Assembly (NCBI RefSeq): GCF_003350405.1
Contig: NZ_QQAW01000015.1
Coordinates: 1 to 64,000, forward strand
Length of the DNA stretch: 64,000 bases
Origin: Gluconacetobacter liquefaciens
Lineage (GTDB): Bacteria; Pseudomonadota; Alphaproteobacteria; Acetobacterales; Acetobacteraceae
Direction of reading: 5' to 3'
Positions within the stretch are counted from its first letter, which is position 1. Every line of letters begins with the position of its first letter. A program made the position numbers and the translations under genes. This document shows, piece after piece, positions 27,148-47,103 of the stretch. A model generated the notes under the pieces. That model saw nothing but the letters and a program-made list of their open reading frames with translations. It did not search any database and was not told where the DNA came from.

Positions 27148-28218
27148 TCAGGCCGGCAGGGTGCCGTGAATCAGATTATGGACATAGGCCAGCTTTTCCA
27201 GCGCCGGGGGGGCGAGGACGAACGGGTAGAAATCGATCTGGCCCATCGAACGGTTCAGGCTGTTGATCGCATAGGTCAGCGGGAGCCACGCCTGGGCGAT
27301 CCGCTCGAACCTGCCGGGGGCGTATGGGTTGAACGCGACCTCGGTCTGCATGGCCGGGTCGTCGGACACATGGATATCGACCGACAGGCCATAGGCCCGC
27401 GCGGTTTCCAGCGTGGAGACGATGTGCAGGTAATGCGCCCAGGTCTCGGCGAAATCTTCCCACGGGTGCATGGTCGCGTAGTCGCTGACGAAATTGTCCT
27501 GCCAGTTCGGGGGCGCGCCGACCTGATAGTGATGCTGCAACGCCGCCTGATAGTCGGCGCGCTCGTCCCCGAACATGGCGCGGAAATCGTCCAGGTGGCC
27601 ACCGTCGCGCACCAGCACGTTCCAGTAATAATGGCCGACCTCGTGCCGGAAATGACCCAGCAGGGTGCGATATTGCTCGCCCATTTCCACCCGCATGGCC
27701 TCGCGCTGGGCGTCGTCGGCCTCGCGCAGTGCGATGGTGATCAGGCCATCCTGATGGCCGGTCAGCACCTTGCCGCCATCGGGCGGATCGCCCAGGAAAT
27801 CGAAGGCCAGCCCGCCTTCCGGGTCTTCCTGGCGGGTCACGATCGGCAGGTTCAGGCGCATCAGCGTATAGACCAGCCGGTGCTTCGCCGTTTCCAGCTT
27901 CCGCCATTGGTCCAGATGCCGGTCCTCCGAGAGGTCCGGGATCGTGCGGTTCAGTTGGCAGGCCAGGCAGTAGGCATCGCCGCCGGCGGGGACCAGCCAG
28001 TTGCAGGCGTTCTGGGCGGCATTGGCGCAGAACCGGTAGGACGGTGCCGTTGCCGCCTTCGAGAGCGGCCGCCATGTGCCGTCCTCGCCTGCTATCTGCT
28101 CCAGCGCGCTGAGATCATTCTCCTCGGGCAGGTAGCCCAGGGTGTGACCGCATCGCTCACATGCCGTGTTCTCGAAGAACAGGACCTGATTGCAGGCCTG
28201 GCAGGCAAACAGCTTCAT
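27148..28218 (-). CDS. Putative zinc-binding metallopeptidase (zinc-ribbon N-terminus)
   Basis: A 356-residue protein. The N-terminus has a zinc ribbon (CQACNQVLFFENTACERCGH) and a second Cys set (FCANAAQNACNW, YCLACQ). The metallopeptidase motif HEVGHYYW lies near residue 213, followed by LRDGGHLDDFRAMFGDERAD-like sequence. It matches the family of bacterial DUF-type putative zinc metallopeptidases with an N-terminal ribbon; substrates are unknown. It lies downstream of the mau-type cluster on the same strand with an 81 bp gap, but no functional link is evident. Confidence 0.85.
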   Translation of the reverse strand: MKLFACQACNQVLFFENTACERCGHTLGYLPEENDLSALEQIAGEDGTWRPLSKAATAPSYRFCANAAQNACNWLVPAGGDAYCLACQLNRTIPDLSEDRHLDQWRKLETAKHRLVYTLMRLNLPIVTRQEDPEGGLAFDFLGDPPDGGKVLTGHQDGLITIALREADDAQREAMRVEMGEQYRTLLGHFRHEVGHYYWNVLVRDGGHLDDFRAMFGDERADYQAALQHHYQVGAPPNWQDNFVSDYATMHPWEDFAETWAHYLHIVSTLETARAYGLSVDIHVSDDPAMQTEVAFNPYAPGRFERIAQAWLPLTYAINSLNRSMGQIDFYPFVLAPPALEKLAYVHNLIHGTLPA

Positions 28219-28299: not shown

Positions 28300-28866
28300 T
28301 CATGCGGCGGCGGAATGCCCGGTGACGGTGGGCAGCAGGGCCTCGACCTGGCGGCGTGTGTTCACCACGTCGCGGGCCAGAATGGTGCCGTTATCATCCA
28401 GTAGCACCAGGGTCGGCAGGCGACTGACCTGCAGGACCAGCCCGAGTTCGACACCCGTGACGAAGGGGACCTCGCCCAGCGCCAGACGGGCGCGCAGGGC
28501 CTCCAGTTCGGGCACCGCGCCATCGCCGACCAGAACGGGTTCCAGGCCGCGTTCGTGCGCCACGTCCAGCGCGATCGGCAGCACGCGCTTGCAGACAGGG
28601 CAGTCGGCGCCGACGAACGGCAGCATACGGATAGTGCCGGCCGCCAGACGCTCGCCCACCGGGAAGGGCGCGCCTTCGAGCGTGCGCATGGTAATGCGCG
28701 GAAGCGCCTGGCCGACTTCGAGCCCGCGCTGGGGCTGCTGCTGGCCGATCGGGGCGATGCGTTCGTGCAGGATGCCGATCTGGCGCGCCAGGGCGAGCAC
28801 CACCAGCACCAGGGCGACGATGGCGGCGAACAGCAGCACCTGCGACACGATCAGGAGCGTCATCAT
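28300..28866 (-). CDS. mauD: MauD: thioredoxin-like maturation factor for amine dehydrogenase
   Basis: A 188-residue MauD homologue: one N-terminal membrane helix (about residues 3-27), the family block ARQIGILHERIAPIG, and a periplasmic thioredoxin-like domain with an intact C89-P-V-C92 redox motif (GADCPVCKRVLP). MauD and MauE are needed to stabilise the disulfide-rich small subunit MauA in the periplasm. The ATG overlaps the mauE stop (ATGA). It is the last gene of the cluster; a second MauD-like protein without the second Cys is encoded at 30640-31254. Confidence 0.9.
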   Translation of the reverse strand: MMTLLIVSQVLLFAAIVALVLVVLALARQIGILHERIAPIGQQQPQRGLEVGQALPRITMRTLEGAPFPVGERLAAGTIRMLPFVGADCPVCKRVLPIALDVAHERGLEPVLVGDGAVPELEALRARLALGEVPFVTGVELGLVLQVSRLPTLVLLDDNGTILARDVVNTRRQVEALLPTVTGHSAAA

Positions 28867-29402
28867 GCGGATTGTTCCTCCGGGCCGCGCGCGGCCGATA
28901 TCAGGTGCGACAGCGCCAGGATCAGCGCCAGCAGGCAGGCGCCGGCCGCCAGCGCCTGATAGCGCAGCAGCAGGGATGTGGGCAGGCCGGTCAGGACCGG
29001 CAGCAGCGCGGCCGGTGCCAGCAAGGTGCTGCGCGCGACGGCGCTCCAGGACAGGCGGGCGGATTCCATGCCGGGCAGGCAACCGCAGGAGAGATCGGCC
29101 CGCCCGCGCAGCAGGTTAATGGTCATCGCCAGCACGAACAGCACGAACAGCAGCGCCGCGCCGATACCGGCCCAGAGGGGGGCTACGCCCACCAGCAGCG
29201 CCGCGCCCACGCCGGTTTCCGCGATCGCCAGGGTCCAGGCGGCGGAGTCCAGCAGGAAATCGGGCACCAGCCGATAGGCGGACAGCGTGGTCAGAAACCC
29301 GTCATGATCGCGCAGTTTGGCGACGCCGGCGGCCAGCAGCAGCATGCCGATGCCCCCGGCCAGCAATGCACCGGCCAGGGGCAGGATGGCGGGGGCGATC
29401 AC
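28863..29402 (-). CDS. mauE: MauE: membrane factor for amine dehydrogenase maturation
   Basis: A 179-residue integral membrane protein of the MauE/DoxX-like family with four or five helices: LAGGIGMLLLAAGVAKLRDH, the conserved FLTTLSAYRLVPDFL, IAETGVGAALLVGVAPLWAG, and RADLSCGCLPG with a Cys-Gly-Cys. It acts with MauD in forming the six disulfides of MauA. The only start consistent with the family is the GTG at 29402, which overlaps the stop of a 11-codon frame that has the proper Shine-Dalgarno (see 29399-29434). If that short frame is instead the N-terminus broken by a frameshift, the protein would be about 11 residues longer. Confidence 0.85.
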   Translation of the reverse strand: MIAPAILPLAGALLAGGIGMLLLAAGVAKLRDHDGFLTTLSAYRLVPDFLLDSAAWTLAIAETGVGAALLVGVAPLWAGIGAALLFVLFVLAMTINLLRGRADLSCGCLPGMESARLSWSAVARSTLLAPAALLPVLTGLPTSLLLRYQALAAGACLLALILALSHLISAARGPEEQSA

Positions 29403-29434
29403 GCCCAGCCTCGGTGACGGAAAATCTCTGTCAT
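29399..29434 (-). CDS. Possible 11-residue leader coupled to mauE
   Basis: A good Shine-Dalgarno (aaaaggag) sits before an ATG at 29434 that opens MTEIFRHRGWA and stops with TGA overlapping the mauE GTG (GTGA). It may be a translational coupling leader. A frameshift in mauE (natural or sequencing) is the alternative explanation. Confidence 0.3.
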   Translation of the reverse strand: MTEIFRHRGWA

Positions 29435-29460
29435 GCTTTCTCCTTTTACCCCTTGCGCCC

Positions 29461-29991
29461 TCACTGCGCGACACGCGCCGCCTGCGCCACATCGTACCCA
29501 TGCAACCCCGCCGCCGCCGGGCAGGCCTGGACGACCGCGCGCACCACCTGCTCGCGATAGCCATGCAGGTCGGCCATCCGCAGCGGCCGGGCCCGCAGGG
29601 CCGCGATCTCGGCCGTGCTATAGGGGCGGCTGTTGGCCGGCACGCTGGCGCCGCCGAAGGTGAAGACCACGAAATTCATCATGCGGGCCAGATCCTCCGA
29701 CGACAGGTTGGCGAAGGCCACGTTCGGCAGGCGGACCAGATAATCCCGCCCCTCCGGCGTGCAGAGGAAATACCCTACCTGTCCCGCCAGATCGGGCACC
29801 ACCTCGCGCCCCGAACGGCCCTGGATGCCATGGCAGCCGCCGCACCCCATCAGATAATGGCCCTGCACCGCCGGAATCACCGGCAGGGCACCGGCTGTAG
29901 GGGCCGCGCGAGCCAGGCCCAGCAGGGCGAGAACCGACAGGGCAAGGACCGGCAGGACGGCCAGGGAGAGGATCAGGGACCGATGGCGCAT
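29461..29991 (-). CDS. Periplasmic mono-haem cytochrome c of the amine dehydrogenase cluster
   Basis: A 176-residue protein with signal peptide (about residues 1-29, ending LGLARA) and a single haem motif C50-G-G-C53-H54 in HYLMGCGGCHGIQG. Candidate axial Met residues occur in DLARMMNFVVFTFG. It is encoded between mauA and mauE, where it replaces the blue copper protein amicyanin (mauC) of classic clusters, so it is the likely electron acceptor of the dehydrogenase or a maturation partner. It is far smaller than MauG, which has two haems, so it should not be taken as MauG. Confidence 0.85.
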   Translation of the reverse strand: MRHRSLILSLAVLPVLALSVLALLGLARAAPTAGALPVIPAVQGHYLMGCGGCHGIQGRSGREVVPDLAGQVGYFLCTPEGRDYLVRLPNVAFANLSSEDLARMMNFVVFTFGGASVPANSRPYSTAEIAALRARPLRMADLHGYREQVVRAVVQACPAAAGLHGYDVAQAARVAQ

Positions 29992-30030
29992 CGTCGTACG
30001 GCGCTCTCCTGCCGGCGGCGCCTCCACCCG

Positions 30031-30591
30031 TCAGCCAGCCTGACCGATGATCGCGGCGGTCGAGCAATGATAGGCCGTGGAGGCCGTGCCGAAACACCAG
30101 ATGATGTCATTGCTGGCCTGCGGACGGTAGATCGGCATTTCACGATCGGCCGTGTTGCAGTCGCAGGATTTCGGGGCGGCACAGATATTGCGGCCGCAGC
30201 AGTCGCGATAGGCAATGACGTAGGAGCGGCCGTCGTCGGGGTTGCGGCAGGTGCCGATCCACGACACGGGCGATGGCTGGGTGCCGGGCGGGCAGGTATG
30301 GATGCCGCCGCCGCAGCAGCCGCACAGCACGCCGTCGATCGCACAATGGCGCCAGTAATTGCACTTGGTCGGGTCGGTGCTCTGCGCCCGCCGTTCGAAA
30401 TCCGTCAGGGTCGCGATCGGGTTGGCGGCGGGGGCCGGCGCGGCCTCGGCGCGGCGCACCGGCAGCAGCGGGAAGGCAGGCGCCACCGCCATGGCAGCGC
30501 CCATCCGCCCCAGCACGCCGCGCCGCGAGGATCGGGCCGCCAGCCGGCGCGTCACGGCTTCGCCCAGCGTATCGAGGAAAGAAACCGGCAT
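30031..30591 (-). CDS. mauA: Amine dehydrogenase small (beta) subunit, TTQ-bearing
   Basis: A 186-residue precursor of the small subunit that carries tryptophan tryptophylquinone. A long twin-arginine-type leader (SSRRGVLGRMGAAMAVAPAF, about residues 1-50) precedes a Cys-rich mature part with 14 Cys. The two tryptophans that form TTQ are W111 (PSPVSWIGTC) and W165 (NDIIWCFG). Spacing is 54 rather than the usual 51 owing to a three-residue longer loop between CCG and CDC. The middle (LCGCC, TCPPGTQPSPVSWIGTC) resembles aromatic amine dehydrogenase; the end (PIYRP, NDIIWCFG) resembles methylamine dehydrogenase, so substrate is uncertain. Confidence 0.93.
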   Translation of the reverse strand: MPVSFLDTLGEAVTRRLAARSSRRGVLGRMGAAMAVAPAFPLLPVRRAEAAPAPAANPIATLTDFERRAQSTDPTKCNYWRHCAIDGVLCGCCGGGIHTCPPGTQPSPVSWIGTCRNPDDGRSYVIAYRDCCGRNICAAPKSCDCNTADREMPIYRPQASNDIIWCFGTASTAYHCSTAAIIGQAG

Positions 30592-30639
30592 TGGCGCGTT
30601 ACTCCTGAAGGTTGCACAGGCCGGGGCGAACCGGCGCGA

Positions 30640-31254
30640 TCATGCCGCGCGAGGCCGCGCGTCCAGATAGGATTGGACCGAGACGTGGCCGGTTTCCCCA
30701 GCCACAACCAGGCTTTCGAGATGCTCACGATTATTGACCAAGCCCTTGGCCACGATCCTGCCCGACGCATCGAGCAGCAGGGCGAAGGGCAGCTTGTCGA
30801 TGCCGAGCACGCGGCCGATCTCGGGGTCGTTGACGAAACGGGACGGCGAGAGGCCGAAGCGTGCCACCAGATCGCGCTGCATGGCATCGGTATCGTCGCC
30901 CAGGCACAGCAGGTCGATGGCCTCGCGGCGCACGAAATCCTGTGCGATCGGCAGCATCTTGCGCGAAATCGGGCAGGTGCCGGAGACGAACAGCAGCAGC
31001 GTGCGCGTGCCCTCGGGCTGCGCCCCGCCTACGGTAAGCGCCGTGCCGTCCAACGCGCGCAGGGGGTGTGCTGCCAGCATCTGGCCGGGGGCCGGGCCAC
31101 CGGACGTCATCAACGCGCCCACCGGTGCCACCTTGGTAAACAGATGCCGCATCCGGCGGAACAGCAGCACCAGCACCGGCGCCAGCGCCAGCAGCAGCAG
31201 CCAGTCCAGCGCCTGGGCCCAGGCCAGGACGGTCATCGACGAAGCGGAGTCCAT
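30640..31254 (-). CDS. MauD-like protein with incomplete redox motif
   Basis: A 204-residue MauD paralogue: N-terminal membrane helix (about residues 12-32), RHLFTKVAPVGALM block, then a thioredoxin-like domain in which the active site reads C94-P-I-S97 instead of Cys-x-x-Cys (SGTCPISRKMLPIA). It lies between mauB and mauA, with its ATG overlapping the mauB stop by one base (TAATG). A one-Cys motif could support isomerase or chaperone activity but not net disulfide oxidation alone. A complete MauD is present at 28300-28866, so the two may divide the work. Confidence 0.82.
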   Translation of the reverse strand: MDSASSMTVLAWAQALDWLLLLALAPVLVLLFRRMRHLFTKVAPVGALMTSGGPAPGQMLAAHPLRALDGTALTVGGAQPEGTRTLLLFVSGTCPISRKMLPIAQDFVRREAIDLLCLGDDTDAMQRDLVARFGLSPSRFVNDPEIGRVLGIDKLPFALLLDASGRIVAKGLVNNREHLESLVVAGETGHVSVQSYLDARPRAA

Positions 31255-32414
31255 TATCCGTTATGACCCGGCAGGAGATCCGGCGCCATGATCATGGCTT
31301 CCGAATGGGCATCGACGGTGCGGCGGACGGTGCCGGTCCGCGCGTCGATCACCGCCATGTTGCCGTCGGCCGAAGTGGCATAGAGCAGGGGGGCGGCGTC
31401 ACCGCTGACGGCGATGCCGCGTGCGGGCTGCGGCAGGTCGATGCGCCGGACCAGCGTGTGGTGGGCGGGATCGAACTCCCACACCTCGGTGCCGTCGGTC
31501 TTGTGCGTCCAGTGCGGGCCGACATGCATCAGCACGAACAGGTGCCCGCTGGCGCGGTTCCACGCGAAAGGCTGCTTCCCGCCGGGGCGCCAGGCCTGCT
31601 CCTGCACGCCGGTGCCGGCCACGGGCTGGCCGGCGGCCACCTGGATCGACCAGGGCGCGGCGATCTGGGGCTTCGCGCCCAGCATCACGTCATAGACCTT
31701 GCCGGTATAGGAGACGAACAGCGCGTGGCCGGTCGCGCGATCGACCAGCCCCTGCTCGAAGATCGGGTCGTTATTGGCATCGAAGAACGGGGCCGTGTGG
31801 GTCACGGTCGGCTTGTCGCCCGCATAGCCCACATTGGTCAGCGACCCGTCGCCGCACAGGCTGGAAAATCCGTCCTGCTTCCAGGGAAAGACAAGGGCGC
31901 AGCCGGGGATATCGACCGTGCGCGCCACCGCGCCCTTCGCCAGATCAACGATCGTGACCGAGGTTGCCGGGCTCATGTCGAAGACGTAGCCCCATCTGCC
32001 ATCGGGGCTGACATCGAAATCCTGCCCCTTGTAGACCGCCAGCGCCCGCGGCGGCAGCGTGATCTCGCGCCGCAGGGCCAGGGTGTGGGCATCATATTCC
32101 TGGATCAGGTCCTGCCGCGTGCCGTGATCGACGCGCGACCAGATCGTGTCTGCGACATAGAAGGTCCGCCGGTCGGGTGAGAGTGCGATATTGCCCAGAA
32201 TGCTGGCCGGCACGGTGCCGAGGATCTTGCCGGCATCGGCATCATAGATCGTGTAGGAGTCCCGGTCGGTCGCGGGCAGGACCCAGTGCGCGCCGACCGG
32301 CGGCAGGGTCGCGACATCGCTCTGCTCGGCTTGCAGGACCGGCGACGCGGCCAGGGCGGCGCCGGCCGGGGCGGCCAGCAAGGCGGCCAGCGCCGCGCGG
32401 TACGCGGTCTTCAT
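31254..32414 (-). CDS. mauB: Amine dehydrogenase large (alpha) subunit
   Basis: A 386-residue periplasmic beta-propeller subunit with a signal peptide (AALAALLAAPAGAALA). Family blocks include GAHWVLPATDRDSYTIYDAD, TFYVADTIWSRVDHGTRQDL, QDFDVSPDGRWGYVFDMSPA and, near the end, ARGIAVSGDAAPLLYATSAD. It forms an alpha2-beta2 tetramer with MauA and oxidises primary amines to aldehyde plus ammonia. The start could be the ATG at 32429, which has a better Shine-Dalgarno and adds MVGWN. It follows a TonB receptor gene after 82 bp and is probably co-transcribed with it. Confidence 0.93.
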   Translation of the reverse strand: MKTAYRAALAALLAAPAGAALAASPVLQAEQSDVATLPPVGAHWVLPATDRDSYTIYDADAGKILGTVPASILGNIALSPDRRTFYVADTIWSRVDHGTRQDLIQEYDAHTLALRREITLPPRALAVYKGQDFDVSPDGRWGYVFDMSPATSVTIVDLAKGAVARTVDIPGCALVFPWKQDGFSSLCGDGSLTNVGYAGDKPTVTHTAPFFDANNDPIFEQGLVDRATGHALFVSYTGKVYDVMLGAKPQIAAPWSIQVAAGQPVAGTGVQEQAWRPGGKQPFAWNRASGHLFVLMHVGPHWTHKTDGTEVWEFDPAHHTLVRRIDLPQPARGIAVSGDAAPLLYATSADGNMAVIDARTGTVRRTVDAHSEAMIMAPDLLPGHNG

Positions 32415-32496
32415 GTTCCAACCCACCATCGCGGCTTTCCTGCCCCCTGTTGAACGTGAGGTGTCCGGGCGATATGGCTCGGACACGTGCCCTTGA

Positions 32497-35124
32497 TCAG
32501 TATTCGGCGCTGATCGTGCCGAAATATTCGCGCACCGCGCCACGCTCCAGCGACTGGTAGTCGCCGCCATCGCCGGACTGACCACCGATCGGGAAGCCGT
32601 TTTCACCCATCATCGCGACATATTTCTGGTTGAAGAGGTTATAGACCTCGAACGCCAGGGTGACGTTCTTCAGCACGCTGAGATTGCCGAAGCGGTATTT
32701 GGCGCCCAGATTGGCCATCCAGTACGGCGCGATGTGTGTGTCGTTCATATACGAGAAATAGCGCTTGCCGTAATAGTTTACGTCGAAATGCGCGGATGCG
32801 CCCTTGTACTCATACGACAGGCTGGTCTTGTACATCACCTGCGGATAGGCGAGCATCTTGGTGCCCTTGATGTCGCAATCGCCCTGGAGCGGGCAGATAT
32901 TGACGTGATCGGCATAGGTAAAATGGTTGTAGCTGATCGAGTTGGTCCAGGCGAGGCCGCGTGCCAGCCCTTCGAAGGGTTGCAGGGTCAGCGCGGCGTC
33001 CATGCCCCACATGACCGCGTGCTTCGAATTGACCACCGAGGTGATCGGGTTGTTCAGCGAACCGACCGATGCCGAGATCAGGCGATTGTAGACATCGGAA
33101 TGATAGCCGTCGATCGACGCCTGGATCTTGCGCGAAGTGTAGCGGTAGCCGACAACGTAGGTGAAATCGCGCTCGTTGGGCAGATTATGCTGAAGGTCCT
33201 TGAACGCATCCTGCGAGGACACCGCCCAGGGAGATACCGACCCGCCCGATGGCGCCACCATGAACGGACGCATGTTCTCGGCGAAATCGAAATAGACCTC
33301 GTGGCCACGTCCGAAATGATAATCGAGATTGACGGCCGGCAGGAACGCGGCCGCCGAGGTCATGGAGCCGCTGGGCAGACCCGAATCCACCCCGACACCC
33401 GTGCCGTAACCGGCATCGACGTTGCCGTAGTCAGCGCCGCCCGCAGTCGTCTGCAACATGGAACGGAAACCATACGTTACTGTCAGGCCCTCAACCGGGC
33501 GCCAGGCATCCATGACGTGGAACTGGAAGGTGTTGGTGTTCCATGTGAATCCGTACCCCTGCTGGAACGCGGGGCCATAGGTGGTGTAGGGGCCGACCGT
33601 CTTCAGCGGGGCGCCCTGGCCGTAGACCGGCTCGTTGTACCAGAACAAGCCCGAACGCTGGGAATTATTCTCGTACCAGCCACCGACATTGATGGTGTGA
33701 TGCCCGACATGCCAGGTAAAGGCACTGGTAAAGCCGAAGCGGCGATAAGAATTTTTCCACACTTCTTCCGACAGAGGCGCACCGGTACCCAGCGACTGGG
33801 TCCAGGGATCACCATAGGTGGCGTTACCGTCGAACGCGCCGGCATAGAACACGGTGTTCCAACGCAGGGAATTGGTCAGCGCCAGATCGGCATTGATGCT
33901 GCCGAGATAATCGCGCGTGGACTGCCCCGCATCGTAATAGGCGGTGCCGGCGCCTTCGTTCGTGTTCTTCCACGAATCCGGAATGGTCGGGCTGGTGCCC
34001 TCGGGCAGGATCAGCGGCGTGCCGCTGCCGACATCGTACGAACCGGGGCCGGTATAGGCCAGGCCGTTATCATTGACCCAGGCATAAGCCGAGGCATTAT
34101 AGGCCCCCAGATAGTTGGGCGCCCAGGATTCGGTCCGCCAGCCGGCGTTCTTGAGGATACTGAGCGACTTGTCAGCGTACCCCCAGACTTCAGCATCGTT
34201 CCAGTTGAACAGTGCGGTGATGCGGCTGTCATGGCCGATCGGCTGGACGAATTTGCCGTTGACCGTCTGCATGAAGCCCGGCGTGTCGGCATCGTATTTC
34301 CGCTCATCGGAGCGCGAATAGGCGGCGTAGAATTTCGTGCCGGTCTGGTTCAGCGCGCCGCTGTCCACGCGCGCATAGGTACGCAGCGTGCCGTAGCTGC
34401 CGAACACCTGCGAGACCTTGGCGCCCGCCTTGTCCTTGGGGTCGGACGTGTGAAAACGCATCGTGCCGCCGAGGCTGGAATTGCCCGGCAGGTCCACGCC
34501 GCCCGCGCCCTGCGAGGTCTCGACGCCCTGGATGTCGTCGGAGATCCAGGCATCGGCGATGTTGACACCGTTGACGCTGGTATAGGTCTGGTCGTTCAGG
34601 GGGATGCCGTCCAGCGTCATCCCGATCGAATCCTGGAAGAAACCGCGCACATAGACACTGGTGCCCCAGGTATCGATGCCGAGCGGATCGCTGGAACTGA
34701 AGCTGACGCCCGGCAACTGGCCGACCGCTTTCAGGATGTTGGTGCCTGCGACCTGTGATTCCAGCATCGCGCGGCTGATGCTGGTTTCCGCGCCATGCGA
34801 GGTATGGTGGCTGGCCACGACATCGACCGCCTCTTCGGCGGCGCGAGGGGCCACGATCGGGCGGGCGGACACATGCGTAGCCGTCACCGGTGTGGCGGCC
34901 CTGGCGGCGGCGCCCGGATGGGCGGCCCGGCCCGCGCCGTGACGGGCGGACGCATGGGCCGGTTTCTTCGCGGAGGGCGTCGATGCGGTGGCGGAGTCCG
35001 ATGCCGTCTGGGCAAAGGCCGGTGCGCCGATCACGCTGCCGATGACGCCGCCCAGGACTGCCGTTCCGAGAAGTCGCGTACGCAAGAATCGTCCGTTTCG
35101 CACCCAAACCCGTCCTGATCGCAT
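32497..35124 (-). CDS. TonB-dependent receptor heading the amine dehydrogenase cluster
   Basis: About 875 residues. Signal peptide (LLGTAVLGGVIGSVIGAPAFA) followed by an Ala/His/Arg-rich linker (about residues 35-95) and no STN domain, so it is a transporter without sigma signalling. The plug has EEAVDVVASHH, LKAVGQLPGVSFSSSDPLG and the TonB-family IQGVETSQGAGGVDLPGNSS; the barrel ends REYFGTISAEY. The start chosen is ATG 35124; the frame is open to 35268 but not conserved. It is the first gene of the mau-type transcription unit, divergent from a LysR regulator, which suggests amine uptake or uptake of a cofactor or metal needed by the enzyme. Confidence 0.88.
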   Translation of the reverse strand: MRSGRVWVRNGRFLRTRLLGTAVLGGVIGSVIGAPAFAQTASDSATASTPSAKKPAHASARHGAGRAAHPGAAARAATPVTATHVSARPIVAPRAAEEAVDVVASHHTSHGAETSISRAMLESQVAGTNILKAVGQLPGVSFSSSDPLGIDTWGTSVYVRGFFQDSIGMTLDGIPLNDQTYTSVNGVNIADAWISDDIQGVETSQGAGGVDLPGNSSLGGTMRFHTSDPKDKAGAKVSQVFGSYGTLRTYARVDSGALNQTGTKFYAAYSRSDERKYDADTPGFMQTVNGKFVQPIGHDSRITALFNWNDAEVWGYADKSLSILKNAGWRTESWAPNYLGAYNASAYAWVNDNGLAYTGPGSYDVGSGTPLILPEGTSPTIPDSWKNTNEGAGTAYYDAGQSTRDYLGSINADLALTNSLRWNTVFYAGAFDGNATYGDPWTQSLGTGAPLSEEVWKNSYRRFGFTSAFTWHVGHHTINVGGWYENNSQRSGLFWYNEPVYGQGAPLKTVGPYTTYGPAFQQGYGFTWNTNTFQFHVMDAWRPVEGLTVTYGFRSMLQTTAGGADYGNVDAGYGTGVGVDSGLPSGSMTSAAAFLPAVNLDYHFGRGHEVYFDFAENMRPFMVAPSGGSVSPWAVSSQDAFKDLQHNLPNERDFTYVVGYRYTSRKIQASIDGYHSDVYNRLISASVGSLNNPITSVVNSKHAVMWGMDAALTLQPFEGLARGLAWTNSISYNHFTYADHVNICPLQGDCDIKGTKMLAYPQVMYKTSLSYEYKGASAHFDVNYYGKRYFSYMNDTHIAPYWMANLGAKYRFGNLSVLKNVTLAFEVYNLFNQKYVAMMGENGFPIGGQSGDGGDYQSLERGAVREYFGTISAEY

Positions 35125-35292
35125 GTGCCGTTTTTCCCCACGCCGCGTCGCGCGTTCGCAATACTGGTCGTCCGCCTGGACCCAGTCTCGAAACAAGGCG
35201 GTTTCGTTGACAAGATCTTTTGTTGCGGCACGCCTACTTTCTTCAAAAGAGATGCACCCTCGACACACACGTTAGTCCATCGAAATAATTTG

Positions 35293-35307
35293 CGAAAGTT
35301 GCCTTCG
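35293..35307. promoter_or_regulatory. Dyad CGAA-N7-TTCG in the receptor/LysR intergenic region
   Basis: A 15-bp inverted repeat between the divergent receptor and LysR genes. Symmetry and size fit a LysR-type T-N11-A operator. It is one of two candidate sites within 45 bp. Confidence 0.4.
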
Positions 35308-35315
35308 TTGCCATT

Positions 35316-35336
35316 GTGGTGACAAAAAGGCACCAC
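35316..35336. promoter_or_regulatory. Perfect dyad GTGGTG-N9-CACCAC, candidate MauR operator
   Basis: Perfect six-base arms separated by nine bases (21 bp), ending 46 bp before the LysR start codon. The position and symmetry suit an autoregulated LysR-type site controlling the divergent amine dehydrogenase cluster. Confidence 0.5.
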
Positions 35337-35382
35337 TATCCTGTTTCTCGCAATCGCTCGTTTCTTCCATTTCCGGCATTCC

Positions 35383-36330
35383 ATGGCAGACAGACGCTCT
35401 TTTCCGCCCTTCGGACCGCTCCGTGCCTTCGATGCGTTCGGCCGCACACGTGGCATTCGCCGCGCGGCGGAATGGTTGCAGATTGATCATGCCGTCGTCA
35501 GTCGCCATCTGCGCGCGCTGGAAAAATGGGCCGGCGTGCCCCTGCTGGACCGCGCGGGCGGCGGACTGACCGAAGCAGGCCGGATCTATCATGACCGGAT
35601 CGCCAACGCGCTGGACGAGATCGCGCGCGCGACGGAGGCCCTGCGCGCCGGCGACCTGCCGCAACTGAGCGTGTGGTGCGTGCCGGGATTCGCCTTTCAC
35701 TGGCTGGTACGCCGACTGGGCAACTTCCGCACCGAATTTCCGGACATTGACCTGTTGCTGCGGCCGACCGATGCGCGCGCCCGGTTCTGGTCCGATGGCG
35801 TCGATGCCGATATCCGCTACCAACTGGACGGCCGGCCCCACGAACCGCAGCCGGGCATCCGCCAGGCGGAACTGGCCCGGCCGCCGGTCTTTCCGGTCGC
35901 CAGCCCGGATTTCCTGCGTCGCGCCGGGCCGATCCGCACGGTGGGCGACCTGCTGTCGCAACCGCTGCTGGCCGAGGAAGACAGTCATGAATGGCAGACC
36001 TGGCTGGCCCGGCAGGGGGTGGCGGCGCCATCCATGATCCCGGCGGCCCGGCTGTGGCATGCCCATCTGGTGCTGGCCTCGGCGCGTGAGGGCCAGGGCG
36101 TGGCATTGGCCAACCCGTTCCTGCTGGAAGACGATCTGCGCAACGGTACGCTGGTGCGGGTCGGGTCGCCGGAAGCGCCGTTCGACGGTGTCGCGATCGG
36201 CGCCTATACGCTGTTAATTCCCGAAAATAGCTGGGAACGCCCGGCCCTGGTGCGCCTGCGCTCGTGGCTGATACATGTCGCTGGCGCGTTTCAGCCCGGT
36301 GCCGGAGCACATGCCGCCAGGGCCTCCTGA
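35383..36330 (+). CDS. LysR-family regulator, MauR-like
   Basis: A 315-residue LysR-type regulator. The N-terminal helix-turn-helix reads PPFGPLRAFDAFGRTRGIRR, AAEWLQIDHAVVSRHLRALE; the effector domain follows (about residues 90-300, LSVWCVPGFAFHWLVRRLGN). In Paracoccus a LysR protein, MauR, is divergent from the mau genes and activates them; the same arrangement holds here with the TonB receptor as first target gene, so a MauR-like role is likely, although the inducer is unknown. Two dyads lie in the divergent spacer. Confidence 0.85.
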   Translation: MADRRSFPPFGPLRAFDAFGRTRGIRRAAEWLQIDHAVVSRHLRALEKWAGVPLLDRAGGGLTEAGRIYHDRIANALDEIARATEALRAGDLPQLSVWCVPGFAFHWLVRRLGNFRTEFPDIDLLLRPTDARARFWSDGVDADIRYQLDGRPHEPQPGIRQAELARPPVFPVASPDFLRRAGPIRTVGDLLSQPLLAEEDSHEWQTWLARQGVAAPSMIPAARLWHAHLVLASAREGQGVALANPFLLEDDLRNGTLVRVGSPEAPFDGVAIGAYTLLIPENSWERPALVRLRSWLIHVAGAFQPGAGAHAARAS

Positions 36331-36387: not shown

Positions 36388-37131
36388 TCAGGCGGCGGCG
36401 ATACGGTCGAACAATGCGATGTCCTGATGATAGGCCGCCAGGATGCGCGCCCGCTGCCGCTCGGTCGGGGCCAGACCGTGCGGCCGGCCCTCGTTCAGGC
36501 GCGGCAGGCGCACGCCCCCCAGTTCCGGCATCAGTTCCGGCAGGTGCGCCACATCCTCGATGCGCAGCAGGTGCCGCACCGCCTGCCGCCCGGCCCGGTC
36601 GGTGACGTACCAGGATTGCGGGCGGAAGATATGGTCCATCGCGTAGATCGAGCGGGCCTGCTCGACATGGTCCAACGCATCGTCAAGCGACCGGAAGCCC
36701 ATATAGAGATCACGAAATCCGGGCGCCACCGTGCGATCCCGTGTGCCGCCGTCCCGGGCGTAGCTGTAGGCCGACAGGAAGCGCTCCACCGGATCGCGCA
36801 GGATGGCGAAGCTGGGCAGGTCGCGCGCCAGGTCCGGCATCACGTCCTGATAATAGCGGATGGATTGGTGCGAGAGCGTGCGACCATACAACGCGGTGGC
36901 GATCGAAGTGCCGGCATTCTTGGGCACATGGATGAACAGGACGCCGCGCCTGGCGACCAGCGCCATGCGCTCGCGCCGCTTCCGGCCCATCGGCAGATGG
37001 ATACCGCGGCGTGCCGCCCATTCATGGATATCCGTCGGCAGGCGGAAACCCATGAGGCGCGTGAGACACGCGAAAGCCTGGGCGGACAACGACGCGGAGG
37101 GAGGATTTTCCATGACCGCCTGCAACGGCAT
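36388..37131 (-). CDS. Sulfotransferase family 2 domain protein
   Basis: About 247 residues. The 5'-phosphosulfate loop is visible in GVLFIHVPKNAGTSIATALY, and the 3'-phosphate binding segment in SFAILRDPVERFLSAYSYAR. These motifs define PAPS-dependent sulfotransferases that modify polysaccharides or other acceptors; bacterial relatives often lie near surface glycan genes, which are not seen here. The frame opens at 37215, but the ATG at 37131 leaves the conserved core intact. It stands alone, convergent with the LysR gene and at the left edge of the sulfur island. Confidence 0.75.
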   Translation of the reverse strand: MPLQAVMENPPSASLSAQAFACLTRLMGFRLPTDIHEWAARRGIHLPMGRKRRERMALVARRGVLFIHVPKNAGTSIATALYGRTLSHQSIRYYQDVMPDLARDLPSFAILRDPVERFLSAYSYARDGGTRDRTVAPGFRDLYMGFRSLDDALDHVEQARSIYAMDHIFRPQSWYVTDRAGRQAVRHLLRIEDVAHLPELMPELGGVRLPRLNEGRPHGLAPTERQRARILAAYHQDIALFDRIAAA

Positions 37132-37246
37132 GATCGTCTTCTGTGGGGCAAGCACGGTCGTTCCTCCGCTCGCAATCGCAATAGGTGGAGACAATCTAGC
37201 AGCAGAAAAAATCACGGAAACCCGCGAGAGCCCCCTCGTTACAATT

Positions 37247-37283
37247 GGAAATTATTTGAAAGATAGGAAATAATTATTTCAAA
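37247..37283. promoter_or_regulatory. A/T-rich repeat pair with 14-bp palindrome
   Basis: Two similar units (GGAAATTATTTGAAA at 37247-37261 and GGAAATAATTATTTCAAA at 37266-37283); the second contains the perfect palindrome GAAATAATTATTTC (37267-37280). It lies upstream of the sulfotransferase gene and left of the IS3 remnant. It resembles an operator, possibly Fur-like, but could be drifted IS flank. Confidence 0.35.
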
Positions 37284-37370
37284 ATCGGCTATTCTTTCTC
37301 CACCTCCCTGATAGGGCGAACATATTATTGTCGATTTCCACTGATCCGGCGGAACGGGCGCACCACTCAT

Positions 37371-37783
37371 TGACCCTGCCCCGTGGAATACCCTCGATTT
37401 GAAGTGGCCTGCTGCCGGTTTCGTGGACACGAAGATAAGAGCGTGACGAAGGAACTGGAGAGTGGATGTGACGAGACGGAGGTTCAGCCGTGAGTTCAAG
37501 ATCAAGGCCGCAAGACTGGTGACGGATCGTGGTGTGACGATGGCGCAGGCCACACGGGACCTCGACGTTGCACAGAGCATGTTGCGCCGCTGGATACGGG
37601 AACTGACCGCTACCCCGACTGTGGCGTTTCCGGGGAATGGCCAGATAGGGGCCGATCTAGCCGAGATTGCAGCCTTGAAGAAAGAGGTCGCCTGGCTCCG
37701 GGCGGAGCGTGACATCCTGAAGAAAGCGGCGGCTTTTTTCGCGCGCGAGGCAATGTGAAGTTCGCTTTCATTGCCAATAGCAC
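37371..37783 (+). mobile_element. IS3-family insertion sequence remnant (truncated after orfA)
   Basis: Left end probably at the TGACCCTGCCCCG near 37371, followed by complete orfA (37462-37758). OrfB starts as expected (VKFAFIAN at about 37755) but stops after a few codons because foreign sequence begins near 37780. The element therefore lacks its transposase core and right end. It marks the left border of the sulfonate island. Confidence 0.75.
37462..37758 (+). CDS. IS3-family transposase OrfA
   Basis: A 98-residue OrfA: TRRRFSREFKIKAARLVTDR, a helix-turn-helix (MAQATRDLDVAQSMLRRWIR) and the leucine-zipper end EIAALKKEVAWLRAERDILK. This protein regulates and directs transposition when fused to OrfB by frameshifting; OrfB is truncated here, so it cannot transpose. 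The GTG at 37468 (MTRRRF) is an alternative start matching relatives. Confidence 0.9.
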   Translation: MDVTRRRFSREFKIKAARLVTDRGVTMAQATRDLDVAQSMLRRWIRELTATPTVAFPGNGQIGADLAEIAALKKEVAWLRAERDILKKAAAFFAREAM

Positions 37784-38067
37784 AACGTCATGAATAGGCC
37801 GGTCGGCCGCCATCGCGATCACCGGATTGACCTGAACCCCGGAACTCCATGTCGGCGGACTATTGACGAGGATCGCAATCCGAGGGCGCTCGACCTCCTC
37901 ATTTTCTGTTTCAAAATAGGTGCATAGAGGAAATGCACAGTCATGGTGAAAAAACCGTAACATATCACATATATACGCTTCTATATTGTCTTTCTAAAAT
38001 CCACCCAACAGGATGGAAAACAACAAAACCACAGCGCAAGACGATATTTAAGGAACAAGCCGCGACC
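37784..38067. other. Segment between IS3 break and ssu-type permease
   Basis: No intact gene. The minus strand holds an unbroken but unrecognised stretch (about 37790-37910, containing ERPRIAILVNSPPTWSS) that may be the cut end of a gene destroyed at the IS3 junction. The last 120 bp are strongly A/T rich and should hold the promoter of the permease operon. Confidence 0.4.
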
Positions 38068-38907
38068 ATGTCAGGCACTCTCATCCGGTCCTCATCCCCT
38101 ACGAGGGACAAGGGGCTCATACGGCACGCACCTCTATCGCGTTTTGGCCTACTGAAGCGCTATGTCTCCCCGATGCTGCTCGTCCTGCTGTGGCAGGTGG
38201 CCTGCTCGACCGGCCTGCTGTCCACTCATGTCGTGGCCTCCCCTTTCCAGATCGCTCTCACGGGCTGGACACTTGTGAAAGATGGTACCCTGCAGACTAA
38301 CCTGTTGGTGTCGCTCGCTCGTGCGGGCGTGGGGCTAGGCATTGCATTCGTCGCGGGTGTCGGTCTGGCCCTGATCGCCGGCCTGTCGCGCCTGGGTGAG
38401 GATATCGTAGATGCGCCCGTGCAGATCCTCCGCACTTTGCCAGCGCTGGCACTAGTACCGCTATTCATCCTCTGGTTCGGGATCGGGGAAACCCCCAAGA
38501 TTGCACTTGTGGCGCTCGGAGCCAGCTTTCCGATCTACCTTAACCTGCACAAAGGCATCCGGTCCATCGATCCGAAGTTGCTGGAAATGGCACGCACCCT
38601 TGGTCTCACTCGCACCAGCACGATCCGGGACGTCATTCTTCCCGGCGCACTGCCAGACCTTTTGATCGGCCTTCGCTTTGCTGTGGGTATCTCCTGGTTG
38701 ATGTTGGTCGTTGCCGAACAGGTCAATGCGGAAAGTGGCATCGGCCATATGATGATGGATGCCGAGGATTTTCTGCGCACAGACATCATTCTCGTCGGTC
38801 TGGTCATTTATGGCCTTTTGGGTCTCATATCTGACCAGATCGTGCGTTTTTTTGAAACCATTCTGTTGTCCTGGCGCCCCTCACATCGTGCAGCGAGGTC
38901 GGCATGA
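38068..38907 (+). CDS. SsuC-type ABC permease (aliphatic sulfonate import)
   Basis: A 279-residue inner-membrane permease with about six helices. The binding-protein-dependent motif region reads LHKGIRSIDPKLLEMARTLG, and the family blocks RTLPALALVPLFILWFGIGE and EQVNAESGIGHMMMDAEDFL mark the SsuC/TauC group. The start is the ATG at 38068. Its stop overlaps the following ATPase gene (ATGA). With the ATPase and a binding protein encoded on the other strand (39851-40789) it forms a full importer for sulfonates or related organosulfur compounds. Confidence 0.88.
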   Translation: MSGTLIRSSSPTRDKGLIRHAPLSRFGLLKRYVSPMLLVLLWQVACSTGLLSTHVVASPFQIALTGWTLVKDGTLQTNLLVSLARAGVGLGIAFVAGVGLALIAGLSRLGEDIVDAPVQILRTLPALALVPLFILWFGIGETPKIALVALGASFPIYLNLHKGIRSIDPKLLEMARTLGLTRTSTIRDVILPGALPDLLIGLRFAVGISWLMLVVAEQVNAESGIGHMMMDAEDFLRTDIILVGLVIYGLLGLISDQIVRFFETILLSWRPSHRAARSA

Positions 38908-39641
38908 ACGCCGTCTCTCAAGTGGTCGCCTTGTCACAGCGCAACGAAGCCATCGTGGTGGATGGCCTGACCCGTCGTTTCGGAAATGGTCCAGCCGTAC
39001 TCGACCAGTTGAATCTGGCCATCGCACCCGGCGAGTTTGTCGCACTGCTAGGCCGCAGCGGGTCGGGTAAATCAACTCTGCTCCGTACACTCGCGGGGTT
39101 GGATCCGGTGACCGAAGGATCGGTGATACGCCCACGCGACGTTTCGGTTGTCTTTCAGGAAAGCCGCTTGCTTCCCTGGAAACGGGTCTGGCAAAATACG
39201 GTACTGGGTCTGCCCGGAGCAAACCAGCGCGCCCATGCGCTGAGTGTGCTGGAAGAGGTCGGGCTCGGCCATCGGGTTGACGCATGGCCGCTGACGTTAT
39301 CCGGTGGCGAGGCTCAGCGGGCAGCGTTGGCGCGCGCTCTGGTCCGCGAACCCGCATTCCTGATGTTAGACGAACCGTTTGCCGCCCTCGACGCGCTAAC
39401 TCGCCTGAAAATGCAGAAACTGATCTCCGAATTATGGGGTCGGCACCGCTGCTCAGTCCTTCTGGTAACGCACGATGTCGATGAAGCATTGATGCTGGCA
39501 GATCGGGCCGTGGTTATGGAACACGGTCAAATTCATACAGACCTCCCCATCCCGATGGACCGCCCCCGCCGTCACACCGACCCGCGATTCGAGCACCTTC
39601 GCCGCGTCTTGCTCGAATCACTGGGCGTATATGACGACTAA
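38904..39641 (+). CDS. SsuB-type ABC transporter ATPase
   Basis: A 245-residue ATPase. Walker A is LGRSGSGKSTLLRTL, Q-loop VVFQESRLLPWKRV, ABC signature LSGGEAQRAALARALV, Walker B AFLMLDEPFAALD and H-loop VLLVTHDVDEAL. Length and the ESRLLPW motif match SsuB. Overlaps the permease gene by four bases. It energises uptake by the same transporter. Confidence 0.92.
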   Translation: MNAVSQVVALSQRNEAIVVDGLTRRFGNGPAVLDQLNLAIAPGEFVALLGRSGSGKSTLLRTLAGLDPVTEGSVIRPRDVSVVFQESRLLPWKRVWQNTVLGLPGANQRAHALSVLEEVGLGHRVDAWPLTLSGGEAQRAALARALVREPAFLMLDEPFAALDALTRLKMQKLISELWGRHRCSVLLVTHDVDEALMLADRAVVMEHGQIHTDLPIPMDRPRRHTDPRFEHLRRVLLESLGVYDD

Positions 39642-39850
39642 CCTACATCCACTCGATTATATGTGTTCTTGACATTCGATAAGATGAAAAATCTCTTCAA
39701 TTACATCCCCTTGATTTCGATCCATCGACAACCCCGCTTTGTATAGGGCACCGGCATCGGACGTTACCGTTCCATGTGAACCCGACGACTTCAGACTTGG
39801 CGGCGTCAGGTGCGGACAGCACCCGTTACCCCACCGATCCGCGCAGGTTC

Positions 39851-40789
39851 TCAGATTGTCGGCGCAGCCTGTGCAATATCCGGCACGCTCGGCAGCAGCC
39901 CGGCATCGACGACCGCTTGGGCGATTCGCTTCTGGCTCTGCACCATCGACGGTGAATTGTTGTGAAAGGCGTAATCGATTCTGGCCACGGATGCCGTGAC
40001 GACCGTAATATCCAGACCGGTACTTCTGGCCAGGATGGCAGCCACTTCGGCCTTGTTACCGCTGGCCCATTGATCGCATTGCTCAATGGCACTGATTACC
40101 AGATGCAAAAGATCGCGATTTTCGGTAACGAACTCTCTTCGAGCCAGATAGAATTCCGTACCGCCCCCCACATCTTCGCCCGTAGCCAGAACACGCACGT
40201 TCTGTCCCGCTCCCGTCAGATAAGGGTTCCAGATCGCCCAGGCATCGACAGTCCCCGCCTCGAAGGCCGGACGACCCGCCGCGGGCAGAAGATACGATAC
40301 CGCAATATCCTGCCACGTCAGCCCATTCCGGAGCAGGGCACCGAGCAGAAGCCAATGAGCATCCGAACCATGCGTCACGGCGACACGCTTGCCTTTCAGC
40401 TCCCGAACCGACCGGATTGGACTGTTTTCAGGCACGATAATGGCCTCGCTCGATCCATTGCGCGTCTCATGCCCGAAATAGACGAAACTGTCAGGCATCG
40501 TTGCCTGCGCAAAGATAGGTGGCAGGTCACCTGTCTGGCCAATATCCACCGCCCCGCTCGCCATGGCCTGAAGCATTGGCGGCCCGGCAGGGAATTGCGC
40601 CCAGTGAACGGAAATCCCTTTTGGTGTCAGAATCCGCTCGAGAAAGCCCTTTTCCTTCATAAGGACGAGCGTACCATATTTCTGATAGCCGATCCTGACG
40701 CTTGACGCCTGTGCCCGCGCGACAGATCCGAGCGACGAAACCAGCGAACCGGACAGCGCCAAGGCCCCGAGACGGCGTCGTGAAATCAT
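39851..40789 (-). CDS. SsuA-type sulfonate-binding protein
   Basis: A 312-residue periplasmic binding protein with a signal peptide that has a twin-arginine-like start (MISRRRLGALALSGSLVSSL). Typical SsuA blocks are VRIGYQKYGTLVLMKEKGFL, VHWAQFPAGPPMLQAMASGA and DIGQTGDLPPIFAQA. It binds alkanesulfonates. It is transcribed convergently to its permease and ATPase genes, which is unusual; a separate promoter must serve it. A second, diverged binding protein is at 52297-53421. Confidence 0.9.
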   Translation of the reverse strand: MISRRRLGALALSGSLVSSLGSVARAQASSVRIGYQKYGTLVLMKEKGFLERILTPKGISVHWAQFPAGPPMLQAMASGAVDIGQTGDLPPIFAQATMPDSFVYFGHETRNGSSEAIIVPENSPIRSVRELKGKRVAVTHGSDAHWLLLGALLRNGLTWQDIAVSYLLPAAGRPAFEAGTVDAWAIWNPYLTGAGQNVRVLATGEDVGGGTEFYLARREFVTENRDLLHLVISAIEQCDQWASGNKAEVAAILARSTGLDITVVTASVARIDYAFHNNSPSMVQSQKRIAQAVVDAGLLPSVPDIAQAAPTI

Positions 40790-46690: not shown

Positions 46691-47103
46691 GAAAAAGGTG
46701 CTTTCGTACTTGGCGCACGCCATCGGACAGTGAAACCCTTCCGCGCGAAGGCGGGGTACATCAAGTCAGTCTCGATTATAGACGATGCGTTACAGTGGAA
46801 TTATCTTTCATACATTTTTACGGTATATATCGTATCAAAACATATCAAGGGTGTTTTGATCGCAAAATCATATAATCGGAAAAATCATATGCAGACTGGC
46901 TTACAACTCTCGGCGTGCGGGCTACACACCCCTACGACGCCGAATAACAGCCGTTCATTTCAATGATTTTCGACATCCGGCAGACGGGAGCGACCAATTC
47001 GGATTCGTGCGTCGAAATCCGTGATACCCAGCGAATGATGCCTCCATGGAGAGCAACCGCCTGGATCAGAGCTCTTTACCGATTTGTTGCCAGATTCAAA
47101 TAT
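46691..47103. promoter_or_regulatory. A/T-rich control region upstream of the sulfur-island receptor
   Basis: About 410 bp without a gene, very A/T rich between 46770 and 46900. It contains a perfect 9-bp inverted repeat (46834-46842 and 46852-46860, listed separately). It should hold the receptor promoter and any sulfur-responsive operator. The remaining part shows nothing recognisable. Confidence 0.5.
46834..46860. promoter_or_regulatory. Inverted repeat ATCAAAACA-N9-TGTTTTGAT
   Basis: Perfect nine-base arms separated by nine bases, 144 bp upstream of the receptor start at 46690. A/T-rich arms suit an operator better than a terminator, and no T-run follows on either strand. Rrf2 regulators bind such palindromes, and one is encoded immediately upstream. 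Confidence 0.5.

Follow-up and report, generated by a model that had tools for sequence, protein, structure and literature searches.

A TonB-dependent receptor and a mono-haem cytochrome accompany a mauG-less tryptophan tryptophylquinone amine dehydrogenase cluster in Gluconacetobacter liquefaciens

How aromatic-amine-type tryptophan tryptophylquinone (TTQ) dehydrogenases form their cofactor without MauG is, to our knowledge, an open question. It is raised by a gene cluster, headed by an outer-membrane receptor, in a 64,000-nucleotide stretch of Gluconacetobacter liquefaciens DNA (contig NZ_QQAW01000015.1, positions 1 to 64,000; hereafter the window), whose source genome comprises 4.17 Mb in 31 contigs and is 100% complete. 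The cluster lies on the minus strand at window positions 28300-35124 and reads, in transcription order, TonB-dependent receptor, mauB, MauD-like 1, mauA, cytX, mauE, and MauD-like 2; cytX is our working name for the mono-haem cytochrome beside mauA, and cytY that for an optional second mono-haem cytochrome. The order of the open reading frames (ORFs) and their domain matches confirmed this gene set and its order, and bore out an initial annotation that had described a contiguous one-strand receptor-mau cluster with a divergent LysR gene. With modest confidence, we propose that the cluster is a LysR-controlled operon that would import and oxidize a primary amine, its TTQ being matured without a linked MauG, probably via cytX. 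The LysR regulator would control the receptor and mau genes together; the receptor would carry the amine over the outer membrane; a periplasmic MauA/MauB dehydrogenase would convert it to an aldehyde; the two MauD-like proteins and MauE would help to form the disulfides of MauA; and TTQ would be made most likely with the aid of cytX.

The two subunits bear the marks of a TTQ enzyme. The mauA gene (30031..30591, minus strand) encodes the TTQ-bearing small subunit (PF02975, 1.7e-52) and mauB (31254..32429, minus strand; start set against locus L080) the large subunit (PF06433, 1.3e-45). In 14 aligned MauA proteins, W111, W165, and D130 (P0002 numbering) and many Cys residues were invariant; from methylamine dehydrogenase, we take the two tryptophans to be those of TTQ and D130 to be the catalytic aspartate. 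The closest named relative of MauA is that of G. dulcium (99% identical). Against the PDB, MauA matched a methylamine dehydrogenase (6.8e-54, with the leader aligned too) and aromatic amine dehydrogenase (4.6e-41), and MauB matched aromatic amine dehydrogenase best (2.7e-39), with methylamine dehydrogenase near (1.1e-37). Given its leader and what is known of the family, the enzyme is expected to be periplasmic. Both subunits missed the equivalog cut-offs for methylamine dehydrogenase (MauB, 151 of 454 bits; MauA, 191.3 of 196.85 bits), and the locus does not qualify as a methylamine dehydrogenase (mau) cluster: as the initial annotation had stated, the ORFs annotated in the cluster include no mauF, mauG, or amicyanin gene, and no di-haem protein is linked to mauA there (amicyanin was not searched for elsewhere in the genome). 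By gene content (mauB, mauE, mauD, mauA, and a mono-haem cytochrome, with neither mauF nor mauG), it instead falls among the TTQ clusters known from aromatic amine dehydrogenase (aau type).

The aau cluster, known from Alcaligenes faecalis and present as a copy on a Pseudomonas aeruginosa plasmid (L178), resembles the window in holding the large subunit, MauE, MauD, the small subunit, mono-haem cytochromes, and cytX, and in lacking mauF, mauG, and amicyanin. The window differs from it in gene order, the receptor coming first and mauE and mauD following cytX, and in content, with an additional MauD-like gene (CxxS) and without cytY. The mau cluster of Paracoccus denitrificans (L177) shares with the window MauA and MauB with the TTQ residues and the MauD and MauE families; unlike the window, it has mauF, amicyanin, mauJ, mauG, and napG/napH-type genes, and no cytX.

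Is the missing mauG then a peculiarity of this locus? It is not: clusters of this type as a rule lack mauF, mauG, and amicyanin, and the gene that recurs with them is cytX. The evidence came from two surveys. The first took the best 80 of 572 mauA matches, which lean to the window's kind, together with a search of family genomes. The second was drawn blind to gene neighbours from 397 genomes of the phylum and 387 of the class, of which 13 and 14, respectively, passed the cut-off, our own genome being among both; it yielded 28 mauA places in 24 genomes after exclusion of our own two, a degenerate match in G122, and a short match in G513. At 26 of the 28 loci of this blind sample, the stretch examined carried cytX and gave no MauG match at 100 bits. 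The remaining two were L267, which has MauF and MauG but lacks cytX, and L263, which has neither; the genome of L267 (G922) carries a second locus with cytX and without MauG (L269), both cluster kinds thus occurring together, and that of L263 also holds a cytX-bearing locus (L264).

The coupling of cytX to mauA was nearly one to one. A cytX gene stood beside 104 of 106 distinct mauA genes (102 found by ORF, L080 and L154 by tblastn) and was missing only at L095 and at L152, which lies at a contig end. In 299 family genomes (cytX threshold E <= 1e-10; the mauA and cytX draws both comprised 299 genomes with agreeing handles), each of the 18 whose mauA passed the cut-off also had cytX, in matching copy number (29 of each in all); outside mauA genomes, cytX occurred in only one, G145, which is 66% complete. 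Wherever cytY was found in the surveyed loci, cytX was found as well. Our own genome holds a second TTQ cluster at C3:370.8-373.7 kb (L011:8803-11712), consisting of mauB, mauA, cytY (with Met-Pro), and cytX; a receptor, mauD, and mauE were not found beside it, so that it has its own cytX yet no mauD or mauE of its own. The plasmid set divided in the same way: among 31 records with a mauA match, 14 were fetched. A MauG profile derived from four of the 14 matched exactly its four source records, all with MauF (two of the four MauG proteins are annotated merely as cytochrome c peroxidase), whereas the cytX profile scored at least 72 bits in nine others, and Thermomicrobium had neither. Two mauB-mauA pairs without a nearby cytX, L095:5022-6789 (Komagataeibacter europaeus) and L263, are natural tests of cytX acting in trans.

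Could an unlinked protein of the MauG superfamily complete TTQ in trans instead? The genome search for mauG, which the initial annotation had called for, brought up no MauG linked to mauA; elsewhere in the genome, three proteins passed the PF03150 (CCP_MauG) cut-off. One of them has three CxxCH motifs and a Met where MauG has its Tyr ligand; the other two are di-haem proteins with Tyr at that place (L013:5349-6626 on C2 and L014:5791-7107 on C4), which speaks against a maturation that relies on cytX. Di-haem proteins of the BthA type with such a Tyr are described from Burkholderia (PMC6405878). Some PF03150 protein was also present in 16 of 18 family genomes with mauA. However, two mauA genomes gave no PF03150 match at E <= 1e-5, namely G219 (150 contigs, 100% complete) and G178 (89%), an assembly gap, for instance in G219, being possible, and the two Tyr-type genes of our genome adjoin phosphoesterase-like genes (judged by eye), not mau genes; completion in trans, for instance by one of the Tyr-type proteins, is therefore unlikely in our estimate. 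PF03150 was used in place of TIGR03791 (TTQ_mauG), which we rejected as an absence test: P. denitrificans MauG (L177:10880-12043) scores 96.8 bits against its cut-off of 443.85 bits, and PF03150 detects this protein. According to PMC7876137, MauG in the systems compared there acts on a Trp that already bears one hydroxyl; a MauG-less route must therefore explain both steps.

The cytX gene (29461..29991, minus strand; a GTG at 30027 is a possible alternative start) directly follows mauA and encodes a divergent c-type protein with one CxxCH, to which a Pfam and NCBIfam scan at 0.001 assigned no family. An AlphaFold2 model (64 rows; predicted local distance difference test score, pLDDT, 84) was closest among solved structures to Thermus c552 (E 4.6e-3; template modelling score 0.67 of the target), and the cytX profile matched Thermus c552 in two blocks (about 1e-17). 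The stretch 48-70 of c552, which contains its Met ligand, Met69, has shrunk to about 5 residues in cytX; when the second block is extended, the Met place is occupied by N in 76, G in 25, and D in 6 of 107 sequences, and the best Met column reaches 59% of 107. By contrast, cytY keeps Met-Pro in 89% of 28 sequences. The class I fold of an electron-transfer cytochrome c is thus supported, and its conserved axial Met loop was not found. Because the Met loop is reduced, no Met column dominates, and cytY keeps its Met-Pro, cytX is unlikely to be a carrier with the usual Met ligation, and the reduced loop would fit a ligand-accessible, catalytic haem. An invariant Asn of cytX was considered as a special haem ligand and rejected, as the identical Asn is present in Thermus c552.

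The main rival role of cytX is that of a dedicated electron acceptor of the TTQ enzyme, without a part in maturation, another factor completing TTQ. Its class I fold and c552-like sequence agree with such a role, the window cluster and most sphingomonad clusters contain no cytochrome other than cytX, and an electron carrier too would be coupled to mauA; moreover, amicyanin occupies that place in three of four mau-type plasmid loci. The trimmed Met loop argues otherwise, as does the presence of cytX wherever the optional, Met-Pro-bearing cytY occurs. Nevertheless, 103 of 107 cytX sequences keep some Met after CxxCH, and with this residual Met and its fold, cytX may yet be an electron carrier, a role that we regard as a serious possibility, though somewhat short of probable. 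We put forward, tentatively and with more doubt than confidence, the proposal that in TTQ dehydrogenases without MauG the cofactor is formed by cytX, acting as the enzyme itself or as its haem partner, with one dedicated copy for each mauA. It would offer a candidate for TTQ formation without MauG in the form of one small gene that is coupled to mauA almost one to one across genomes; if cytX does form TTQ, the MauG route of methylamine dehydrogenase would be a minority solution.

The second question is whether the receptor gene (32497..35124, minus strand; Plug domain PF07715, 2.3e-10), whose start ATG at 35124 is conserved in eight species of the promoter alignment, is part of the mau unit. 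Its product gave no match to the beta-barrel model PF00593 at 0.001, whereas that of its distant relative L076 did. Receptors were detected with nine seeds in the first survey and with profiles in the blind sample. They were linked to mau genes in Gluconacetobacter, Acetobacter, Komagataeibacter, Acidomonas, and Asaia, and the mau-locus receptors of three other genomes of the same genus were 85-92% identical to the window receptor in the search that returned them. In the first survey, a same-strand receptor lay within 250 bp at 21 distinct loci (20 upstream and one, L076, downstream) among 46 distinct mauA genes of acetic acid bacteria, the receptor being counted once in loci that hold two mauA genes (L087, L088, L136, and L154); outside acetic acid bacteria, the same was true of 4 of 60 mauA genes. 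In the blind sample, 6 of 28 loci (L250, L252, L260, L261, L262, and L271) had a same-strand receptor at most 500 bp upstream of mauB, with a small cytochrome ORF in between at L261 and L262, and two further loci had one 1.5 and 3.4 kb upstream.

Because Plug domains were matched 85 times in the 4.17 Mb of the genome, including five times in the window, a control for chance linkage was needed. With 85 receptors per assumed 3800 genes, half of them on the right strand, and this density of our own genome applied to the others, 0.31 linked loci would be expected among 28; P is about 6e-7 for six and 1.4e-5 for five. In a tree of 41 rows of the window receptor's subfamily, the 19 mau-linked rows required at least 3 label changes, counted on the starred branches, against a mean near 14 after shuffling; the 22 unlinked rows came from 20 stretches that we picked among the receptor search matches. 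Fifteen mau-linked rows, from Gluconacetobacter, Acetobacter, Komagataeibacter, and Acidomonas, formed one group (support 92), three others, including Asaia, a second, and L076 stood apart.

The divergent promoter also ties the receptor to the mau genes. The LysR-family regulator (35383..36330, plus strand; PF00126 and PF03466), whose top NCBIfam match is GcvA (8.1e-57, under the cut-off), faces the cluster across a region that contains a LysR-type box, GGTGCCTTTTTGTCACC, a 17-bp T-N11-A dyad at 35318..35334 on the minus strand. This dyad is conserved in eight aligned Gluconacetobacter promoters and was found exactly in 13 of 275 loci; these all belong to Gluconacetobacter, and in some cases one species is represented twice. 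At two or fewer mismatches, the window contains one such site versus 0.08 expected. L050 and L051, which lack the receptor, carry this box between LysR and mauB. The receptor thus falls inside the LysR-mau unit, because the box precedes the receptor or, in these two receptor-less loci, mauB directly. The distance from the receptor stop to the mauB start is 67 nt in the window and 27 nt in G. sacchari, and a terminator-like site was looked for on the minus strand of this gap and not found. From this arrangement, we infer co-transcription of the receptor with the mau genes.

Several observations count against such a unit. A short hairpin, seen by eye, lies between receptor and mauB in the window and in some relatives, though not at L080, and the predicted structure of the window receptor was poor (pLDDT 45, 15 rows). 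L050, L051, L085, L086, and L095 lack a receptor, and most sphingomonad loci have none directly adjacent, so the enzyme can do without it in some hosts. These absences and the abundance of receptors in the genome are what a chance neighbour would predict; yet the linkage is close, on the same strand, and recurrent in several genera and families and in several receptor lineages, and the box is common to the receptor and the mau unit, which together with the chance estimate make that explanation very improbable. The data therefore support that receptor and mau genes belong together, as the initial annotation had suggested; the failure of conservation in relatives that it named as grounds for giving up this link did not materialize, and no support was found for iron-type regulation, although no dedicated Fur-box scan was run.

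What might the receptor import? The initial annotation had offered an amine substrate or a metal or cofactor for maturation, and the former stands as plausible while the latter gained no positive support. A scan of 12 neighbours of receptor paralogues matched tannase, GMC oxidoreductase, alpha/beta hydrolase, S15 peptidase, carboxylesterase, and isochorismatase families, as well as POT and MFS transporters and Zn-alcohol dehydrogenase; EamA, PEP mutase-like, and GGDEF proteins, which gave no catabolic hint, also turned up. Receptor-headed clusters of Novosphingobium (pNL2 and EMRT-2) adjoin genes for catechol or intradiol dioxygenases, which are ring-cleavage enzymes. Judged from such gene neighbourhoods, import of the substrate by the receptor is plausible, and its ligand would be a bulky amine, perhaps aromatic or plant-derived; delivery into the periplasm would suffice, because the enzyme should be located there.

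Some findings sit less easily with amine import. Small amines would not be expected to require an energized receptor; the window receptor weakly matches a haemoglobin/transferrin receptor model (5.6e-14; 51 of 323.75 bits), and that of Novosphingobium aromaticivorans a siderophore receptor model (92 of 223.5 bits). These sub-cut-off matches, and the haem that cytX requires, would agree with a receptor whose cargo is not an amine but iron, haem, or some other cofactor on which the making of cytX or the enzyme depends. We hold this to be distinctly unlikely, as the LysR-type box is common to the receptor and the mau genes, the receptor paralogues adjoin catabolic genes, and TTQ needs no imported cofactor because, as known for the family, it is built from protein side chains. 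Amine import remains our preferred reading, and the linkage suggests that energy-driven import across the outer membrane can feed TTQ dehydrogenases; a wider substrate range is therefore worth testing.

The novel aspect of the locus is that an aau-type TTQ cluster has an outer-membrane receptor built in. The initial annotation had held such a receptor to be undescribed; searches of open-licence papers, whose limited coverage makes this weak evidence, brought up neither a TonB receptor in TTQ clusters nor a mono-haem maturation factor, but receptor-headed TTQ clusters are visible in the public annotation of N. aromaticivorans pNL2 (L180) and Novosphingobium EMRT-2 (L214). Like the window, these have a same-strand receptor just upstream and genes for the large subunit, MauE, MauD, the small subunit, and cytX; they differ from it in the order after the receptor and in their ring-cleavage neighbours, and pNL2 has a c-type cytochrome gene in between. 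The polyethylene glycol dehydrogenase (peg) operon of Sphingopyxis, in which a TonB receptor feeds a periplasmic dehydrogenase of a different class, would resemble the window's cluster in plan. PMC3608174 places an amine dehydrogenase, Saro_1685, in the periplasm of N. aromaticivorans and gives no TTQ mass; it was not used as support.

Three further genes complete the cluster, all on the minus strand. MauD-like protein 1 (30640..31254; TIGR02661, 5.4e-39, under the cut-off) has the CxxS motif CPIS, and MauD-like protein 2 (28300..28866, with an internal ATG start; TIGR02661, 2.1e-39, under the cut-off) the CxxC motif CPVC. The mauE gene (28863..29564; PF07291, 6e-22) is given as the longest ORF, its true start probably being internal. 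Of 132 loci with a MauD match, 28 had CxxC and CxxS, 100 CxxC alone, three CxxS alone, and one neither; the CxxC/CxxS pair is common among the clusters of acetic acid bacteria. Viral contigs were scanned for MauA relatives, and none were found. At L100, L118, L126, L129, and other sphingomonad loci, ORFs of about 720-730 amino acids near the TTQ clusters resemble, by eye, molybdenum aldehyde oxidoreductases, which would suit an oxidation from amine to aldehyde to acid. In the window, four more TonB-dependent receptors with Plug matches lie at 2189-4828, 8614-11094, 44012-46723, and 57218-59815. A putative zinc metallopeptidase (Peptidase_Mx; 27148-28218) is immediately 3' of the cluster on the same strand, and next to the LysR gene, at 36388-40789, lie a gene of the sulfotransferase family and genes for an ABC transporter, including a permease and an NMT1-like binding protein.

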